From Leptospirales bacterium (lineage in GTDB: Bacteria > Spirochaetota > Leptospiria > Leptospirales > Leptonemataceae), in the NCBI GenBank assembly GCA_019694655.1, contig JAIBBN010000007.1:62001-126000 (forward strand): a stretch of 64,000 nt of DNA, read 5' to 3'. Shown piece by piece: positions 39,942 through 56,815 of the stretch. The position numbers and the translations under genes were made by a program. The notes under the pieces are model-generated. The model saw nothing but the letters and a program-made list of their open reading frames with translations. It was not told where the DNA came from and made no database searches. The first letter of the stretch is position 1. The number at the start of each line of letters is the position of its first letter.

Positions 39942-40757
39942 CTATGGCATTGGTATCGTGCGGCGGTGCTGCAGCGCCGGCAAGCGCTGGCGCGCCTCGC
40001 TCAAGCTGCGGTCCTCCAGGTCAGCCAGGAGCGCCTGCTGCTGTGTTCCGCCCTCCGCAAGAATTACGCCCCAGGGGTCGACAATCAGCGAATGGCCGAA
40101 GCTTCGCCGCTCGCCGTAGTGCAGTCCGCATTGGGCAGGGGCCACGACAAAGCAGAGGTTCTCGATGGCCCGCGCCCGAATCAGAAGTTCCCAGTGTGCG
40201 GCCCCGGTATAGGCTGTGAAAGCCGAAGGAATGAGCAGGACCTCCGCGCCGGCGGCGGAAAGGGCGCGGTAGAGTTCCGGAAAGCGTAGATCATAACAGA
40301 TGCTGAAGCCACACTGGGCCAGGCCTGGCAGCTGATGGAGCGTCGTCCGGCGGCCAGCGGCAATGTTCCTGGACTCCCGGTAGGCGCCTACGCCGTCGGG
40401 AAGCTCAACATCAAATAGGTGCAGTTTGTCGTAGTGGGCCATCGCCCCCGCAGGACCGTAGAGCGACAGGCGATTGTGCAGACGGCCATCCCCGGAATGC
40501 GCGTAAATGCCGCCGGCGATGTAGATATCCAGCTCCTCGGCCAGTCTCTGCATCAGGCGCTGCGAATCCTGCTCAATGGCCGGGGCGATGGTCTGAAGCT
40601 GGTCTTCCGGTCCCAGGAACGGAAAGGCCTCCGGCAGCACAGCAAGCCGGGCGCCGCCGTCGGCCGCCTCCCTGAGCAAACGCTCCGCCTGTTGCAGATT
40701 GCTCTGCAAGTCAGGAACCGAATTCATCTGGATCGCCGCGACTCGGAAGCTCTTCAT
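39942..40757 (-). CDS. Carbon-nitrogen hydrolase, Nit2 / deaminated glutathione amidase type
   Basis: 271 aa, normal length. Catalytic triad intact: Glu43 in AVLPEAFPF, Lys111 in HYDKLHLFD, Cys154 in FSICYDLRFPELYR. The block MAHYDKLHLFDVELPDG and the end RSFGHSLIVDPWGVILAEGG match the Nit1/Nit2 branch, which hydrolyses deaminated glutathione or omega-amides. It provides an active contrast to the Cys-lacking nitrilase-fold gene at 35.1 kb. It is divergent from the unknown gene at 40.86 kb. Confidence 0.92.
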   Translation of the reverse strand: MKSFRVAAIQMNSVPDLQSNLQQAERLLREAADGGARLAVLPEAFPFLGPEDQLQTIAPAIEQDSQRLMQRLAEELDIYIAGGIYAHSGDGRLHNRLSLYGPAGAMAHYDKLHLFDVELPDGVGAYRESRNIAAGRRTTLHQLPGLAQCGFSICYDLRFPELYRALSAAGAEVLLIPSAFTAYTGAAHWELLIRARAIENLCFVVAPAQCGLHYGERRSFGHSLIVDPWGVILAEGGTQQQALLADLEDRSLSEARQRLPALQHRRTIPMP

Positions 40758-40857
40758 TTACACGCAACCAGACAATCCCTTGCGCCGCCGGATGCAATTA
40801 AATGTGCTTGAAGCTCTGGCCATTCTGCCAGTCTTGAATAGCGTTTCCGAGACTGCC

Positions 40858-42741
40858 ATGGACGAAATGGAGTTCGACCGCACGCGCAAGGCGATTGGCG
40901 CCAAGAATCTTGATCGGGCCGATCGCAAGCAGATGATGGATAAGCTGGCGTCGGCTGGCGGTCAGGTGCTGGGCGAGCGGGCCGTGCGCGGGGAGCAAGA
41001 GGAAGGCGCCGGCGGTAATCGAAGCGGCCGGAGCGGGGGGGGCGGCGGCGACTTCAAGCTTCCTTCCCAATTGGCCAGAGAAAAGCAGCGCGAAGATGCT
41101 GAGCGTCAGGCCCAGATTCGCAAAATGTTGGAAAGCGAGGAGCGCGCTGCCAGCAGCTTCCTGGCTCGTTTCGGCCTTAAGTTTCGCTGTATGATGGCTG
41201 GCATCACGCCCTTCGGAAGGGACGTGGCTCGACCGGATTTTCTGAGCAAACTCAACCTCGACGCCAAGCGCGCCATCATGGAATGCCAGATCCTTGGAAA
41301 TGACCTGTTCCTCAACAATCGGGACGTTGCCATCAAGATCGTCAAAGAGCTGGACCTGAAAAATCCGATTCTGGCGGAATTGATTCAGCGTTCTTCCGAT
41401 CTTTACGATCGCGCTGAACTGACTGAGATCGTTGGCAGCTACTCACCGTCCAACCCTTCGCCGGTGGCGCTGGACAGCATCCGCGCGCCAGTCTTTTCTC
41501 TTCTGCGCAAACTGTACTATTTGAAGCCATTTCAGGAGACCTATATTTCTGCGGCGGAAGCGGCAATCGACATACAGCAGAAAGTGGAAAGGAAGCAAGC
41601 AGCGCTCTACGATTCTAAGAAGAAACGCATTCGCGCCGAATGGCGAAAGTTGATGAATGACATATATCCCGATCTGGCGCTTGCGGCGCAGCGGATGGAG
41701 ATGAAACGCGCCGAACCCGGGACCCGATTGTTTGAGGATATGATCGGATTCGATCCGGCGCTGCGTCCCGGCGGGCGAAAGGCGGGGGACGCGCTTTCCA
41801 ATCGTCTGGGGCGCATCCAGAGCGAGGCCGAACAAGCCGCTGAAGCCGCGCAATCGGATCAGGCTGATTCAAACGTCGACGAGAATGACCAGGACCAGAA
41901 TGAGACTGAGGCGGAATCGACAGAGGAGAGCAGCGCGACCGTTGCCGGCGACGGAACGGGCGCGACCGCTGTCGGCGAAGACGGCGTCGGCGACGACCTT
42001 GCGCCACAAGCCAAGAAGCAGCCAAAGGAAATTGATCCCAGCAAGGAACTGACCTACGGCTATCGTCTGATGCGTATTCAGTCGCTGCCAACTTTGCGAT
42101 CCAAGCATGATCCCAAGAGCGAACTCAAAGATTTACCGGAGCGCGACAAGGCCTTCGTCGCCTATCTCTTATTCAAGGAATTTGAAGAGGAGTACTCTTT
42201 TATCCTGACTACGCCGCAAATCAAGGTAAACGCCAGCTACCAGGGCGGCGTAAAGATTGACTATCGTCAAAAGATGCGCGATGTATACGAGGAATCCAGG
42301 CGAGTTGAGGATCACTTCCGGAAGTACGCCCACGAGGCGCGAGAGCATCTTAAGATTCTGGAAGAAGCTACCTCTCCTCAAAGCTATGTGGAGCACGCCA
42401 AAAAGGTGGGGATACTGGAAAGTCGTCGCGGCGTTACCAGCCGCGAAACCCGCCTGCAGATCAAGGAATTCAGCTCAAGGGTGGCCGAGGTTTTGCGGGC
42501 CTTAATCCACGATATGCGTGGCGCAAATCAAATTGTGTCCAATCGAGAAGATGCCATACGATTTGAGATTGATCGGGACAAGCGCAAGAGGTTGAATGGG
42601 AAGGCCATTAAGGATTGTATCATGCAATCCTACTGCTACAGCGTTGGTCTTGCCGACCGCCTGGAGCACGGCGACCTTTTTGGCGGAGTGCTTGAGCTCA
42701 GCGAAGAGGAATTTCAGAGCGCCTTCACTCACGCCGGATGA
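40858..42741 (+). CDS. Large hypothetical protein with acidic linker
   Basis: 627 aa from ATG 40858; ATGs at 40792 and 40867 are alternatives. Begins EFDRTRKAIGAKNLDRADRKQMMDKLASAGGQVL, then a Gly/Arg linker, a helical domain from about residue 75 to 310 (AREKQREDAERQAQIRKMLESEERA.. and on), an extremely acidic Asp/Glu/Gln segment at about 330-390, and a second helical domain with many charged residues (RQKMRDVYEESRRVEDHFRKYAHEAREHL) to the end. No membrane segment, no catalytic motif. I believe similar large soluble hypothetical proteins occur in Leptospirales, but do not know a function. Its stop overlaps the prmA start by 4 bp. Confidence 0.7.
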   Translation: MDEMEFDRTRKAIGAKNLDRADRKQMMDKLASAGGQVLGERAVRGEQEEGAGGNRSGRSGGGGGDFKLPSQLAREKQREDAERQAQIRKMLESEERAASSFLARFGLKFRCMMAGITPFGRDVARPDFLSKLNLDAKRAIMECQILGNDLFLNNRDVAIKIVKELDLKNPILAELIQRSSDLYDRAELTEIVGSYSPSNPSPVALDSIRAPVFSLLRKLYYLKPFQETYISAAEAAIDIQQKVERKQAALYDSKKKRIRAEWRKLMNDIYPDLALAAQRMEMKRAEPGTRLFEDMIGFDPALRPGGRKAGDALSNRLGRIQSEAEQAAEAAQSDQADSNVDENDQDQNETEAESTEESSATVAGDGTGATAVGEDGVGDDLAPQAKKQPKEIDPSKELTYGYRLMRIQSLPTLRSKHDPKSELKDLPERDKAFVAYLLFKEFEEEYSFILTTPQIKVNASYQGGVKIDYRQKMRDVYEESRRVEDHFRKYAHEAREHLKILEEATSPQSYVEHAKKVGILESRRGVTSRETRLQIKEFSSRVAEVLRALIHDMRGANQIVSNREDAIRFEIDRDKRKRLNGKAIKDCIMQSYCYSVGLADRLEHGDLFGGVLELSEEEFQSAFTHAG

Positions 42742-43649
42742 GCGACGAAATTTTTTCTGAAGTCATCGTTCGATTGCCGGCGGAGAACTCGCTGCTTTTG
42801 GTGCAGGCGCTCGATCAAGGCGGGGCGCTGCCGGAGTTATCCGGCTACTACGAAACGCTCTATCAGGAGGATCGGCCGGCTGATGACCAGACGCAGCTTT
42901 CGCTCTTCTTTCCTGTGAGCTTCGAGTTGCCTGAGATTCAAGTCGAGCTGCTGCTGGTCGCGCTCGGCATTGATCGGTACGCTATTGAATCACAAAGAGT
43001 CCAACGGCAGGATTATCTTGAGGCTTACAAGGAGCACTATCAACCGTTCCATTTGACGCGGCGCATTTTTATCACTCCTTCGTGGGAGCGCGGGGGTCAG
43101 GCGGAACAGCAGGCTCGCTGCTCTGGATCGATCCCGCTCTATCTGGATCCTGGGTTGGCCTTTGGAACCGGAAAGCATCCAACGACGCAACTCTGCGCCG
43201 CCTGCATTGAGGAGCTAACCGGTCCGGGCATTCGTTTCATTGATGCAGGCGCCGGTTCCGGGATCCTTTCGCTGGTAGCATTGCTGTTGGGCGCGGAAGC
43301 CGGTTTGGCCTTCGACATCGATGGCAACGCCGCACTGTCCATACGGCAGAATCTGGAGGCCAATTGTCCGCCGCTGCAAAGCGAACAATTGCAAATCGTG
43401 TGCGGCGATTTTACATCGTCGGCCTTCGAAAACTTCAGCGCTGATTGGCTGTTCGCCAATATTACCGCCGCCGGCATTCTTCAGAATATTGATGCGATTG
43501 AACGCGGCAGCTTTTCGCGGATGATGCTTTCGGGAATTCTGTCGGAAAAGGCGGAGCAGGTTTTGCAAGCGTTCCAATCGAACTGGCGCTCCCTGGATGC
43601 CAGGCATCTCGATGGCTGGAGTTTACTGCTCCTGGAAAGGCGTTCTTGA
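42738..43649 (+). CDS. prmA: Ribosomal protein L11 methyltransferase (PrmA) family
   Basis: 303 aa. SAM-dependent methyltransferase expected to trimethylate L11. The SAM site is FIDAGAGSGILSLVALLLGA, preceded by the PrmA hallmark LDPGLAFGTGKHPTTQLCA, and ANITAAGILQNI stands for the ANI(L/T)A motif. The N-terminal 110 residues form the L11-recognition domain, divergent but with the LPVSFE / LLLVALGI pattern. It overlaps the upstream hypothetical gene (ATGA). Full-length and probably active. Confidence 0.9.
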   Translation: MSDEIFSEVIVRLPAENSLLLVQALDQGGALPELSGYYETLYQEDRPADDQTQLSLFFPVSFELPEIQVELLLVALGIDRYAIESQRVQRQDYLEAYKEHYQPFHLTRRIFITPSWERGGQAEQQARCSGSIPLYLDPGLAFGTGKHPTTQLCAACIEELTGPGIRFIDAGAGSGILSLVALLLGAEAGLAFDIDGNAALSIRQNLEANCPPLQSEQLQIVCGDFTSSAFENFSADWLFANITAAGILQNIDAIERGSFSRMMLSGILSEKAEQVLQAFQSNWRSLDARHLDGWSLLLLERRS

Positions 43650-43706: not shown

Positions 43707-44036
43707 ATGGCAAAGCTCGAGGTCCGAAAGAATGGCAACGCCGTCATTTTGTCGATCAAGGGTCGACACACCTTGCACGACAAGGCTGACTTCCAGGCTA
43801 TGCTCGAGGACATCAAGGCTAGCGGCGGCAGCACCTTGTGCGTTGATGTCAGTGCTATGGAATACGTAGATTCCAGCGGAATTGGCGACCTGATAAAAGT
43901 CAAAATGGAATCGGGAAAGATTTTTGAGCAACTGCTGGTATATGGCATGTCCGAGGCGGTGGCTCGCTCCTTTCGAGTTTCGGGACTCCTGCAATTGTTC
44001 GAAATCATCGATGAGGCGCACTTTCGTACTTTATAA
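43707..44036 (+). CDS. STAS-domain anti-sigma-factor antagonist
   Basis: 109 aa. Single STAS domain with the phosphorylatable motif MEYVDSSGIGDLIK, Ser57 being the expected phosphorylation site in DSSG; N-terminal strands (LEVRKNGNAVILSIKGRHTL) and C-terminal helix (SGLLQLFEIIDEAH) are typical. It would release a target from an RsbW-like kinase when unphosphorylated. It is followed 18 bp later by the large SAH-hydrolase-like gene, and no kinase is adjacent; the closest unpaired RsbW-like gene is 7 kb away at 36.7 kb. Confidence 0.92.
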   Translation: MAKLEVRKNGNAVILSIKGRHTLHDKADFQAMLEDIKASGGSTLCVDVSAMEYVDSSGIGDLIKVKMESGKIFEQLLVYGMSEAVARSFRVSGLLQLFEIIDEAHFRTL

Positions 44037-44054: not shown

Positions 44055-46520
44055 ATGTCTGAAGATCAGCGCAGCGTCGACCAGGACTCCGCCGGCGGAG
44101 GACTCACGTCGCTTGGAGTCTCGCTTGTAGCCCGCCCCGATGGGCGCTGGTTTGTTGACTTAAGCGACATGCGGCTCTTCACCGGCCTGTCGGTGATCGC
44201 CCGCACTCTGGCCGATGAGCTGCTCGAGCAATCGCGCGCTGGCGTTGTCGACGCCTATGTGCAGCGTCGCCTTGTATCAGATATTTCGCCAGACCTGGTT
44301 GCACTGGGCGTGGGCAGCATAACTGTCTATGCATTGGACGGTTCGCTGCGCGGCGCGGCGGCGGCGCCAGAAGAATTTCATACGCAGCTTCGAACAGTCC
44401 TGGGAACGCTACAACGTCCGCGCTGGGCGTCGCAATTGTTTGCGCCGCCGGAAGCGAATTCGCGCCCGTTGCTGTTCCCTTTCCACTCTGTATTCGAACA
44501 GCAGGAGATTGACTATTTCTTTCTGGTCGAACTGGATCGCTCCGCGCGCTTCATGCGCATCAGCGTCGAGCGCGTCGGCAGCGGTCGCATTGATCTGCAA
44601 CGCTTGCAGCCAGTAGTCATTGATGATTTGCATATGCGCACCTACATCCAGGGCCTTTCGAGGATGGCTCAATCGGTCCACCTTGGCATCTTGCGTGAAT
44701 GCGAAGCAAGTCGAACCGAGTTTTCAGATACGGCGCGCCGCAACGTGCATTTTTTTTCGCAGCTGACTCGCGCTGGATTGCCGGATTGCGATAGCTTAAC
44801 CGTACATTGGCCGGCGGAAGCCAACGAACTTCTGGTACGAGCCGACTATAGCGTTAGCATCGACTTTCTGAAGCGGGTTTTCATCGTCCTTGAAGATCGA
44901 ACAATCGTCGAGCGTCTGCTTGCAGGCGATGCTATCGAAATTCGCAGCCGTCGTTTGCGGGCTTTTCTGGATCTTTCGCGGCGCGGAAGGTGCCTGAATA
45001 TCAGTCTCTTTGAAGCGCGCGACGCAGCCAATATCGAGTATTACCAGAAACGAATGCCCGCTCTGGCGGCGCTTGGCGAGCGTCGTCGCGGCGAGCTGAG
45101 CGGCTGGCGTATTTTTCTGATTCATCATATCACCAGCGAAATACTGGGGGTAATCAAGACTCTGGACGCTCTGGGCGCGGAGCGACTGCATACGCTCTTT
45201 GTAAAGTATGCCGGCTCTACGCCCTCGGACTATCTGGAAGCCTTGCTCACCCTTCCTGAAGATCGGTTTCGCTTCAGCAGCCTGCAGAAGATCGAATCGT
45301 CGACAAGCGTCGATGGCTACTATTTGATTTCTCGGCAGTATTCGCCAATTGACGATCTCGCAGCGCTGGAGGCGGAGCTGGAGATCAATAAGTTGGATTT
45401 TTTCTCGGCGATGAGTCTCTGCGCCGGCCAGCTCTTCTTGCGAGAAGCTGCGGCGGCGCGCAAGGCCAGACAGCGATTGTTAGTTATAGAGGATGGCGGC
45501 TACTTGATGCCAATGCTGAATGATTTGGCTTTGCAGGGCGTCAGCGTCGAGGCGGCGCTGCAGCATTTTGCGCTGTCGCCGGCGGAGCTTGGGATTGGCA
45601 GCGCGGACAGCGAGCTACAGAGCTCGCTTGTGGAGTGGCTTTCGCCTGTGCTTTGTGGTTCGATCGAGCATACGCGCAATGGACTGAATCGACTCGAGGC
45701 TGTGTGCCTGCAACGTGGTCGATTGCAGTGGCCGGCGGCCACCATTGCTGTCTCCGATTTGAAGCGCAACCGCGAGTCGCAAGAGGTCTCAGTTTCTATT
45801 TTACATGCCGTAGAGAGCATACTGCATGGACTGGGTCTGGTATTGAGCGAACGTCGCGCTCTGGTTCTGGGGAGCTGTGGCGCCATTGGCCGAAATCTGA
45901 TGGAGGATCTGTTTGCCAGGCTGGGTGCGGGTCGCGTTTCGGGCGTTGATCTTGTAGAAACGCACGATGCAGACGTCGGGTCAGAAGCTCGAAGGGTGCG
46001 GGACCTGTCGGAACTCAGCGAACGGTCTTTGCTGGAGTCGGATCTGATCCTTGGAGTCATCGGCGAGTCGATTCTTACAGAGCCCTGGTTGGAGAAGCTG
46101 GTTGCCGATCATCGGCGCCGGTCGATCTTTTTTGCCAGCGGATCAACCAAGACCGCAGAGTTCACGCACTTGATCGAATGGTTGCGGCGCCTGCAAACGT
46201 CCGCCGCTCCGCAGATTGGCGGGGTTCCGGTTTCCTTGCAGCAAGAGCTGGTCCGCGATCCGCAGACCGCCCATATCACCGGGAAGCGAATCGAGATCCG
46301 TTTTGACGATGGCCGTCGTCGCTCGCTGTACTTGCTGGGCGGACTCACGCCGATCAATTTCTTGTTTTACGGCGTCCCTACCGAAACAATGGACGCCATA
46401 CTCGCTCAGCTCTTGCAGCTCAGCCTGGGCCTGATCCAGCAGAACCGCAGCAGCAATCTGCCTGCCCGAGCGCTGGCCGTAGATCGGGATATTGATGCCG
46501 ATTGCCGGCCGCTAGCATAA
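44055..46520 (+). CDS. Large protein with S-adenosylhomocysteine-hydrolase-like C-terminal half
   Basis: 821 aa, about twice the size of an ordinary SAH hydrolase. Residues 1-345 match nothing I know. From 347 the text follows SAHH: LSGWRIFLIHHITSEILGVIKTLDALGA (His358 at the HxT site), LLVIEDGGYLMP (Asp480 where the catalytic Asp lies), SIEHTRNGLNRLE (Glu538), WPAATIAVSDLKRNRESQ in place of the VNDSxTKSKFDN block (Lys570 may be kept, Asp and Asn become Glu and Ser), then a Rossmann motif ALVLGSCGAIGRNL at 602-615. It therefore binds NAD-like cofactor, but the reaction may differ. It sits behind a STAS gene and may respond to it. Confidence 0.7.
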   Translation: MSEDQRSVDQDSAGGGLTSLGVSLVARPDGRWFVDLSDMRLFTGLSVIARTLADELLEQSRAGVVDAYVQRRLVSDISPDLVALGVGSITVYALDGSLRGAAAAPEEFHTQLRTVLGTLQRPRWASQLFAPPEANSRPLLFPFHSVFEQQEIDYFFLVELDRSARFMRISVERVGSGRIDLQRLQPVVIDDLHMRTYIQGLSRMAQSVHLGILRECEASRTEFSDTARRNVHFFSQLTRAGLPDCDSLTVHWPAEANELLVRADYSVSIDFLKRVFIVLEDRTIVERLLAGDAIEIRSRRLRAFLDLSRRGRCLNISLFEARDAANIEYYQKRMPALAALGERRRGELSGWRIFLIHHITSEILGVIKTLDALGAERLHTLFVKYAGSTPSDYLEALLTLPEDRFRFSSLQKIESSTSVDGYYLISRQYSPIDDLAALEAELEINKLDFFSAMSLCAGQLFLREAAAARKARQRLLVIEDGGYLMPMLNDLALQGVSVEAALQHFALSPAELGIGSADSELQSSLVEWLSPVLCGSIEHTRNGLNRLEAVCLQRGRLQWPAATIAVSDLKRNRESQEVSVSILHAVESILHGLGLVLSERRALVLGSCGAIGRNLMEDLFARLGAGRVSGVDLVETHDADVGSEARRVRDLSELSERSLLESDLILGVIGESILTEPWLEKLVADHRRRSIFFASGSTKTAEFTHLIEWLRRLQTSAAPQIGGVPVSLQQELVRDPQTAHITGKRIEIRFDDGRRRSLYLLGGLTPINFLFYGVPTETMDAILAQLLQLSLGLIQQNRSSNLPARALAVDRDIDADCRPLA

Positions 46521-53927: not shown

Positions 53928-56408
53928 CTAACGAAGCCTTCGGAAGGCGATCATGGCAACGTCATCGTTCAGGCCGGAAGGTCCCTTTCCACTGAGACTC
54001 TTGCCGCTGAAGGCTTCGATATCCTCCGCGATCAACTGCACCAGAACGGCCGGCTTTTTCCGGGAGGAGGCGCCCAGGACGGTGAGCAAACGAGGCTCGC
54101 CATAGAGTTCGTCATTCGCGTTCATCGCCTCGGTTAAGCCGTCGGTGTAGAGAAAGAACAAATCGCCAGGTGAAAGCCGGGTCGCGCTCAGCTGGACCAT
54201 GTCCGCAAAGAGCTCATTGTCCAGCGCCCCAACCGGGATTCCGCCAGCCTTCAGTCTTTCGACCGACCCATCCTTGTAATGCAAGAGCAGCGGCGGCAGA
54301 TGGCCGCAGGAGACATACTCAATGTCGCCGGAGTCCGCCCGGTAGCGACCCAGGCACATCGTAATGAAAATGTTCTCAGGCGTATCGGCGTAGGCGCGAC
54401 GGTTGAGTTCCTGGAGAATCTGCAGGAGGTCGCGCTCCCCGCGGCGCACGATGGAATGGAGCTGCGCGCGCAGCATGGTCATCACAATGGCGGGGCCCAC
54501 GCCGTGACTGGATACGTCGGCCACGCAAAAAACGAATTCACGCTTTCCGGCGACGATGAAGTCGAAGTAGTCTCCGCCAACGCCGATCATCGATTTATAG
54601 TAGGAACCAAAGGAAAGATCGCTTTCAAAACCCTGGGGAGGCGACTCCGGAATCAGGCGCTTCTGGATCTCCTCGGCGGCGGAAAGCTCGCCGCGCAGCT
54701 CCTCGCGTTCTTTCAATCCCTGAACCATCGAGTTCAGCGAATCTGCCAGTTGACCGAGCTCGTCTGCGCTGCGGTATTGAAAGCGAACGCTGAGGTCGCC
54801 GCGGCCAACACGCGCAGCGCCGCGAATGATCCCACGGACCGCGCCGACAAAGAAATGGGAGAGCAGAAAGGTCAGGAAGAGAAACCGTAGCGCAATAGAA
54901 AGCGCCGTATCAACGAAACGCGAACGCTCTCGTCCCAGTTCTTGTTGGTAGGCGCGGCGGTCGGCCAGGATTCGGGTGAATCCGGCAGTCTCCTGGTACA
55001 GCGAGTCCAACGCAAGATCATCCAGCGCCTGAGTGTCAATTGCAATGAGCCGCGCCTCCGCTTGTTGGCGCGTAAGCGTTTGCAGGCCGGAGTATCCCGG
55101 AGCGTTAAGAGGGGAGCGCCCGGCCAGCACCCAGTCCAGAACCAGTTGCAGTCGTCTGGCGCCGATGCTGCGCGCCCGCGAACCGCGCAGGTAATCATCG
55201 TAGGTCTCGATATCGGCGTTCCAGTGAAATCCTATATCGCGCTCCAATCTTGCGGCGCGCAAATAGCGAAGCGCATCCACAATAGTTGCCGCCGCTGGAA
55301 GTTCTTCCGGCTGTTCATCCGGCGCCGCGCTTGCAAAGTTGGCATCCTCTCGTTGCAAGTAGCTTTTTGCGGCGGCATTGAACTGCTCGTCGCGTTGCGT
55401 TCGTAGCTGCTGGTAGGCGTCGCGCAGCGATCGCCATTCGCTGTCCATAGCCGGCGGTCGATCGCTATTTTCCGATAGCAACGTTGCAGTGCGCGCCTGC
55501 CATTGGAGTCCGGCCAGCTTCAGCTGCGCATTAATGGTCTTCTCACGTTCGACATACCGTCGCCAGATGGCGCTGTGCGGGAGATTCCGCAAGCAGAGCT
55601 CTGCACGACGTGAGAGTTCTGGATGCCGAAAGAAGGTGCGCGAAACAAGCAAATAGCTGCCGCCGTCAATGGTTAGATCGGCAGGCGCCGCTTGCAGTTG
55701 CGGCCGACGCGATTGAATATAGGGGCGATAGAGAGCGTCCAGCGAGACCCGCAATTCATCACTGCGCCCCCAGAGAAAGTTGTCGATTGGCGCACTGCGT
55801 CGCTGTCGCTCGCTCAGCAACTGCGCAGTATCGAAACGCGGCCAGCGGTAGAGGTCAATCGATTCGGCGCGGTAGCGGCGCAGGTCCAGGCCGCGAAAGG
55901 CGACGGCAATTCGACTGTTGTACTCGAAGGATGCACGCAATTCTTCTTCAAATAGTTTTCGCGGCAGCGCATAGCCCGTCTTTTCCGGCGATGCGTCCAT
56001 CACGCGGCGGGCCAATCCCTGCAGATAGGAAAACCGTCGCTCATCTACCGGATCGCTGGATGGAGAAGGACGAATCAAATCGCGGATGCGCTCCTCCGCT
56101 TCCTTGACGGCAGCCGCAGAAAAAAAGGCGCTTTCCGTACCGCGAGTTTTCGCTTGTTCCGCCGATCGGCGCAGCCGCTCCAGTGCGGTCATCATTGCCG
56201 CAACATGGTCGACCTCGAGCGTCAGCAATTCGACCGGCGTCAAGTAGCGCGCGACTTCTTGCTGCGCCTTTGCGGCCAGCGCGTCATTTTGCTGGCGCAC
56301 GGCAGCAGCCAGAAAAGCGGCAATGAGTCCGCCAAGCATCAGCGCAATGAACAGCGATAGCTTGCCACGAATTCCAGGACGCAGCCGCTGCTTCCATGCG
56401 CCGTTCAT
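53928..56408 (-). CDS. Membrane PP2C phosphatase with HAMP domain (RsbU/SpoIIE type)
   Basis: 826 aa. TM1 at about 17-40, a ~450-residue periplasmic sensor region of unknown fold with many Arg/Tyr-rich helices, TM2 at about 505-528, a HAMP domain (GAARVGRGDLSVRFQYRSADELGQLADSLN), then a PP2C/SpoIIE phosphatase: AAEEIQKRLIP, VGGDYFDF with metal-binding Asp, CVADVSSHGVGPA, YVSCGHLPPLL, LFFLYTDGLTEAMN and GLNDDVAMI. All phosphatase motifs are intact. It would dephosphorylate the STAS protein encoded two genes upstream. Its start overlaps the stop of the RsbW-like gene. Confidence 0.93.
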   Translation of the reverse strand: MNGAWKQRLRPGIRGKLSLFIALMLGGLIAAFLAAAVRQQNDALAAKAQQEVARYLTPVELLTLEVDHVAAMMTALERLRRSAEQAKTRGTESAFFSAAAVKEAEERIRDLIRPSPSSDPVDERRFSYLQGLARRVMDASPEKTGYALPRKLFEEELRASFEYNSRIAVAFRGLDLRRYRAESIDLYRWPRFDTAQLLSERQRRSAPIDNFLWGRSDELRVSLDALYRPYIQSRRPQLQAAPADLTIDGGSYLLVSRTFFRHPELSRRAELCLRNLPHSAIWRRYVEREKTINAQLKLAGLQWQARTATLLSENSDRPPAMDSEWRSLRDAYQQLRTQRDEQFNAAAKSYLQREDANFASAAPDEQPEELPAAATIVDALRYLRAARLERDIGFHWNADIETYDDYLRGSRARSIGARRLQLVLDWVLAGRSPLNAPGYSGLQTLTRQQAEARLIAIDTQALDDLALDSLYQETAGFTRILADRRAYQQELGRERSRFVDTALSIALRFLFLTFLLSHFFVGAVRGIIRGAARVGRGDLSVRFQYRSADELGQLADSLNSMVQGLKEREELRGELSAAEEIQKRLIPESPPQGFESDLSFGSYYKSMIGVGGDYFDFIVAGKREFVFCVADVSSHGVGPAIVMTMLRAQLHSIVRRGERDLLQILQELNRRAYADTPENIFITMCLGRYRADSGDIEYVSCGHLPPLLLHYKDGSVERLKAGGIPVGALDNELFADMVQLSATRLSPGDLFFLYTDGLTEAMNANDELYGEPRLLTVLGASSRKKPAVLVQLIAEDIEAFSGKSLSGKGPSGLNDDVAMIAFRRLR

Positions 56409-56815
56409 CGGGCTGGGACTCGCTTGCTCAAGGTCAAAACGTTGCCGCCTCCGGGACGAGCTTGGTGCTGAGCATCCATCAGCGTCGTATACAGAAAAAC
56501 TCCGAGGCCGCCTTCCTGTTCTCGTTGGGCAATGGTTTCCAGATCCGGTCGCGGCGTCCTTGTTGGATCAAAGAGCGCAGCGCGGTCGAGAATACGGAAG
56601 ACGACGCGATCCGCCTGGCGTTCCATCTCGATATCAATCAGAGCCCGGTCATCGGCGCAGTTGCCATGCTCGATCACGTTGGCCAGAGCTTCATCCACAG
56701 AAAGCACGATGCGATTTTGATCGATGGCGTCAAAGAGGCCGCCAAGAAAGCTTTGCGCTGCCTCGCGTACGCGCTCCAATTCGCTCAGGTCGCAGCGGAC
56801 CTGAAGCTGCTTCAC
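56405..56815 (-). CDS. RsbW-like serine kinase / anti-sigma factor
   Basis: 136 aa from GTG 56815, the size of RsbW/SpoIIAB. GHKL ATPase: SVDEALANVIEHGN with Glu42 and Asn46 (N-box), ILDRAALFDPTRTP and EQEGGLGVFLYTTLMDA as G1 and G2 boxes. It should phosphorylate the STAS antagonist encoded directly upstream and hold a downstream target when the antagonist is phosphorylated. It overlaps both neighbours by a few bases, so the three proteins are made together. Confidence 0.92.
   Translation of the reverse strand: MKQLQVRCDLSELERVREAAQSFLGGLFDAIDQNRIVLSVDEALANVIEHGNCADDRALIDIEMERQADRVVFRILDRAALFDPTRTPRPDLETIAQREQEGGLGVFLYTTLMDAQHQARPGGGNVLTLSKRVPAR

Follow-up and report, generated by a model that had tools for sequence, protein, structure and literature searches.

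The window analyzed here, a stretch of 64,000 nucleotides, carries on its + strand an intact ORF (positions 44055..46520) with an ATG start, 821 codons for amino acids and no internal stop, whose product is referred to as the SAHH-like protein (SAHH, S-adenosylhomocysteine hydrolase) on the basis of family alignments and an AlphaFold2 model. An intact gene for a protein of 109 amino acids with a STAS domain only (43707..44036, +; PF01740, E = 3.5e-11; TIGR00377, E = 6.6e-12) ends exactly 18 bp upstream, and both the 821-aa ORF and this neighbor, described in the initial annotation, were confirmed. No promoter-like site was found on the + strand between the two genes, which fits their co-transcription. 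Further upstream lies prmA, encoding ribosomal protein L11 methyltransferase (42738..43649, +; PF06325, E = 1.5e-47), which is probably a neighbor outside the SAHH-like system; 5' of prmA is an ORF of 680 amino acids belonging to an unknown family (40699-42741, +), which has no Pfam match of note and is conserved (cluster c4) at six of the loci in the window's family. A gene for an M50B-like peptidase (PF13398) and, by eye, a NAD-epimerase-type ORF are located downstream of the SAHH-like gene. Since an ordinary SAHH is encoded separately in the same genome (contig C6), the SAHH-like protein is a paralogue. It was found intact in 16 of 48 genomes of the host's class, a conservation far beyond chance.

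Single-sequence searches (Pfam, NCBIfam, and phmmer against PDB sequences) gave a hint of SAHH over 50-60 residues only: TIGR00936 matched residues 322-378 with 22.5 bits (curated cut-off, 497.6), PF05221 scored 10.7 bits (cut-off, 25 bits), and the protein stayed under the cut-off of every curated family, the SAHH half thus being recognized by neither Pfam nor NCBIfam. The relationship left at a hint by these searches was settled by comparison of folds. The AlphaFold2 model of the whole protein (pLDDT 90.4, pTM 0.86) found its best PDB match in SAHH entry 3x2f (VIA-align Z = 30.9, rmsd 2.6 A, 361 residues aligned), and the top 50 listed Foldseek matches in the PDB were without exception SAHHs or SAHH-like proteins (best E = 7e-15); identity in the structural alignments to SAHHs was 16-21%. 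Furthermore, a profile of 39 full-length relatives from several phyla was aligned colinearly by HHalign with genuine SAHHs of the same phylum over 291 columns (E = 8e-4), in a register that continued to the C-terminus when forced. The SAHH fold was assigned to residues 309-816 (44979..46502, +). Weak Rossmann matches to unrelated dehydrogenases, obtained with the profile against PDB sequences, were overruled by the fold comparison. The proposal that the C-terminal half is a remodeled SAHH was therefore borne out by both fold and profile, and no other Rossmann family fitted better.

Residue equivalences to SAHH were derived from motifs and the profile alignment, not from superposed coordinates. 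In the mouse enzyme, adenine is held by Thr57 and Glu59, while the contacts are Glu156 and Asp190 for the 2'-OH, Thr157 and Lys186 for the 3'-OH, and His55, Asp131, and His301 on the 5' side; the molecular gate Gly300-His301-Phe302 is completely conserved in SAHHs (PMC4647836). HxTxQ/E is the substrate motif of SAHH (PMC10978960). The SAHH-like protein carries the signature HxTxE in a HHITSE motif (residues 357-362; 45123..45140, +; 39/39), corresponding to His55, Thr57, and Glu59, and H357, H358, T360, and E362 were found in all 39 full-length relatives. The EDGGY motif (479-483; 45489..45503, +), with Asp480 at the position of Asp131, was likewise invariant (39/39). In the EHTRNG motif (538-543; 45666..45683, +), where E538, H539, T540, N542, and G543 were present in 39/39, the register was E155-E156-T157-T158-T159-G of SAHH against E538-H539-T540-R541-N542-G: Thr540 corresponds to Thr157, and His539 replaces Glu156. 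His358, Asp480, and Glu538 had been described as placed as in SAHH; all three are present and the first two assignments stand, but Glu538 is the counterpart of Glu155, and the position of Glu156 is that of His539. The reported alteration of the KSKFDN block was seen as K570-R-N-R-E574-S575 (KRNRES, 570-575; 45762..45779, +). Lys570 corresponds to Lys186, Glu574, likewise at +4 relative to the lysine, takes the position of Asp190, and Ser/Ala575 that of Asn191; K570 and E574 were found in 39/39, and position 575 was Ser in 21, Ala in 17, and Thr in 1.

A putative NAD-binding loop, GxxGxxG (606-612), together with Asp632, was predicted by alignment (45870..45950, +): G606, G609, and D632 were conserved in 39/39 and G612 in 38/39. 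These residues would point to NAD over NADP, and the NAD dependence suggested earlier is plausible. The SGSTKT motif (695-700; 46137..46154, +) stands in place of the Gly-His-Phe gate, and was found in all 39 full-length relatives and also in short relatives. N768, the counterpart of Asn346, was invariant (39/39). The C-terminal tail with Lys426 and Tyr430 is absent, the structural alignment stopping at SAHH residue ~391 and the protein ending at residue 821; archaeal SAHHs likewise have no Lys/Tyr tail (PMC10978960). Taken together, the residues for adenine binding and for redox and elimination chemistry appear to be kept, whereas rebuilding appears to have affected the gate, the 5' channel, and the 2' side of the ribose. 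Such a pattern would be expected of a working enzyme with a different 5' group, not of decay.

The N-terminal part forms a single confident, unclassified domain of 295 residues (14-308; 44094..44978, +), for which AlphaFold2 gave a pLDDT of 93.4 when modeled alone. There was no consistent Pfam match across the 39 members, no match of the sequence profile in the PDB, and no match of the model among viral structures; against the PDB, the best Foldseek E value was 0.05 and the best VIA-align Z 4.2 over 61 residues. The domain, described earlier as novel, thus has no match in Pfam or the PDB, and may be a new fold. Complete or near-complete invariance was seen at D66, Q120, E159, R168, E172, and W252. 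No stand-alone form was found in the 120 genomes compared from the phylum, where the domain occurred only within ORFs of ~800 amino acids. Chains of pol-beta, Rel, and CutA were among the structural matches (E of 0.05 or worse, Z of 2-3); a nucleotidyltransferase-like fold remains a faint lead, since nothing was found when profiles were compared with the Rel protein of the same genome. A copy from Planctomycetota (L093, 7675-11487; 1270 amino acids) has an additional N-terminal extension of ~457 residues without a Pfam match.

A first scan of genome contigs with the single protein as the query detected no loci, whereas an alignment-based scan detected at least 47, a lower bound because two short patterns were used. 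The loci were distributed among Leptospirales, other spirochaetes, Desulfobacterota-type MAGs, Acidobacteria, Planctomycetota, Lentisphaerae, Kiritimatiellae, Bipolaricaulota, and others; many of the records are MAGs, and single odd placements (e.g. Dependentiae) may be binning errors. The SAHH-like family is a genuine and conserved branch within the SAHH superfamily, of which no description was found in a literature search. A role in anti-phage defense was considered and rejected, with no PADLOC match for the protein and no plasmid relative. Short SAHH-like proteins (L104 and L106-L108; Marinifilum, Lachnospiraceae, and Ruminococcus) share EDGGY, ExTRNG, K..E, and SGSTKT with the family, but differ in having no N-terminal domain and, in one branch, HxDxK instead of HxTxE; they occur with an ATC-hydrolase-like domain, either linked or fused. 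Marinifilum flexuosum has two of them in tandem (L104, 6238-10683), the one carrying HxDxK and the other HxTxE, with an ATC-hydrolase-like gene (PF14196, below cut-off) between them, and in L108 the ATC-hydrolase-like domain is fused at the C-terminus.

The most widespread partner of the family is a zinc dehydrogenase of the MDR type, encoded near the SAHH-like gene, mostly directly upstream, at 27 of the 34 loci outside the window's family. Eleven of these 27 have the order ParA-like ATPase, ECF-S/HAMP membrane protein, dehydrogenase, and SAHH-like gene; 12 have a longer dehydrogenase gene, usually overlapping the SAHH-like gene; and the remaining 4 are rearranged. Four further loci contain the ATPase and the membrane protein, with no dehydrogenase within the flank covered. 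The long dehydrogenase keeps a Cys-His-Glu zinc site (C58, H80, and E81). In the window's family, the long dehydrogenase is encoded apart from the SAHH-like gene; the copy of the window's genome lies at G000:C1:454386-455879 (E = 3e-161). At L121-L123 and L125, this unlinked gene is directly behind a conserved ORF of 93-96 amino acids (MEWEKILRDSV...) and near genes resembling, by eye, the glycine cleavage system. Within the host's class, the dehydrogenase was found in 15 of the 16 genomes with the SAHH-like gene versus 2 of the 32 without it (Fisher test, 2e-9 over genomes, which are not independent; with genera as the unit, the association in the window's family is weak, p = 0.10); the one genome that has the SAHH-like protein without the dehydrogenase is 81% complete. 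Conserved operons with both genes were seen at L068, L069, L070, L073-L077, L079, L102, and L103; their ATPase is ParA/MinD-like with a RGGTGKS P-loop, and their membrane protein is ECF-S-like with HAMP and a conserved tail (xYFxxLxxKAxxFR). In a second family of Leptospirales (L080, L085, L090, L091, L096, and L101), a NUDIX-type gene directly follows, and usually overlaps, the SAHH-like gene, and is itself followed by an unknown gene of 336-385 amino acids.

The adjacency of STAS and SAHH-like genes, on which the initial annotation based a signal-controlled enzyme, held at 7 of 8 loci of the window's family, but at none of the 34 loci elsewhere was a STAS gene directly upstream, so that the linkage is not a family-wide property. 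At the eighth locus (L067), there is no STAS gene and the SAHH-like gene is directly behind prmA; in the protein tree, STAS was gained once, after L067 had split off (support, 0.87). The STAS gene might be an unrelated passenger in a transcription unit headed by prmA, with no functional tie to the SAHH-like protein. This lineage-restricted pattern and the abundance of STAS and RsbW-type genes in the genome are compatible with such a passenger, although STAS orthologues above 150 bits were present, among the genomes searched, only beside a SAHH-like gene (the best match in genomes without it was 117 bits, in G005, and all others were below 80), and the pair was retained while the downstream neighbors varied. 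A mere passenger thus seems somewhat improbable, and control by STAS would be reasonable as a lineage-specific feature, not as one of the whole family. An RsbW-type kinase and a RsbU/SpoIIE-type phosphatase do not adjoin the STAS gene in the window; an ORF with HAMP and a SpoIIE-type phosphatase domain (by eye; 53928-56408, - strand), ~10 kb from the STAS gene, and a HATPase_c_2 kinase match beside it (56423-56791, - strand) are candidate partners, although the genome has 19 matches to HATPase_c_2. At L089 from Acidobacteria, the SAHH-like gene is surrounded by genes for HATPase, Cache-HAMP-SpoIIE, STAS, and the dehydrogenase, an arrangement that independently hints at partner switching.

The company of signaling-type genes (HAMP, ParA, STAS, SpoIIE, and HATPase) would suit a regulator equally, and tempers an enzymatic interpretation, as do the genus-level test and the single genome lacking the dehydrogenase. 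The SAHH half could be a pseudo-enzyme sensing NAD or adenosine nucleotides, with the N-terminal domain signaling to STAS, HAMP, or ParA. Human AHCYL1/IRBIT provides a precedent for an SAHH-like domain used for regulation, and the conserved linkage to the ATPase and membrane protein, the STAS neighbor in the window's family, the gene content of L089, the large obligatory N-terminal domain, and the loss of the gate all agree with this. On the other hand, catalytic residues are usually lost in pseudo-enzymes, whereas the acid/base residues here are invariant across several phyla, and a dehydrogenase partner of catalytic type suggests a metabolic step; we regard the sensor as unlikely. A bulky second SAH hydrolase, acting on SAH and differing in regulation only, is very unlikely. 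Retention of the counterparts of HxTxE, Asp131, Lys186, and Thr157, and the existence of archaeal SAHHs without the tail, would allow it, but the gate is missing, Glu156 and Asp190 are changed, the region of the homocysteine channel is rebuilt, and an ordinary SAHH is already encoded elsewhere in the genome. By its gate, ribose-side residues, and curated scores (22.5 bits for TIGR00936 against 497.6), the protein is not an SAHH proper.

We give about an even chance to the remaining alternative: an active NAD-dependent enzyme performing SAHH-like redox elimination on an adenosyl substrate other than SAH. This is argued for by the invariance (39/39) of H358, T360, E362, D480, T540, K570, D632, and N768, which correspond to the SAHH residues for adenine binding and for the redox and elimination steps (PMC4647836, PMC10978960), by the SAHH fold with an equally invariant SGSTKT in place of His301-Phe302, by the presence of a separate ordinary SAHH in the genome, and by the linkage and co-occurrence of the zinc-site dehydrogenase. 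Judged from its residues, the protein likely works like SAHH. The adenine end of the substrate would be bound through HxTxE as in SAHH; the 3'-OH would be oxidized by tightly bound NAD+ (Lys570 and Thr540), the 4' proton taken by Asp480, and the 5' group eliminated or exchanged with the assistance of His358. Given the rebuilding of the 2'-OH contacts, the gate, and the homocysteine channel, the substrate would depart from SAH in its 5' group and perhaps also at the 2' position. The N-terminal domain would be an additional but indispensable module that delivers the substrate, regulates the enzyme, or has a second activity of its own; the accompanying zinc alcohol dehydrogenase probably takes part in processing the product, and the STAS protein probably switches the enzyme in the window's lineage. 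A bolder proposal, to which we assign a low probability, is a new two-domain enzyme class in which a new N-terminal fold is joined to a redox lyase of SAHH origin. Such an enzyme would synthesize or degrade a small molecule built on adenosine, perhaps one used as a signal, and would work with the zinc dehydrogenase and be connected to the ECF-S/HAMP membrane, ParA, and STAS regulators.

SAHH occurs almost universally, and its family is generally regarded as having a single reaction. A bacterial branch in several phyla with the adenine site and redox core kept, the gate replaced by an equally invariant motif, and a large domain added points to an unrecognized reaction of adenosyl compounds, and the dehydrogenase, ParA-like, ECF-S/HAMP, and STAS neighbors are concrete leads to the pathway.

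Among known systems, the STAS gene of the window resembles the RsbV/SpoIIAA antagonists in being STAS-only with a conserved D-S-S/A-G loop, but differs in that RsbW/SpoIIE genes do not adjoin it, the nearest pair lying on the opposite strand at a distance of ~10 kb. With SAHH and S-inosylhomocysteine hydrolase (PF05221, PF00670, and TIGR00936), the SAHH-like protein shares the fold over ~360 residues, a NAD-type Rossmann site, HxTxE, and the counterparts of His55, Thr57, Glu59, Asp131, Thr157, Lys186, and Asn346; it differs in the extra N-terminal domain, the replacement of Glu156 by His, Asp190 by Glu, Asn191 by Ser/Ala, and GHF by SGSTKT, and the absence of the tail. Human AHCYL1/IRBIT and AHCYL2 (3mtg and 3gvp, among the Foldseek matches) likewise combine the SAHH fold with an extra N-terminal region; however, they are eukaryotic and their extension is unrelated in length, whereas the SAHH-like family, its gate apart, keeps the core catalytic residues.
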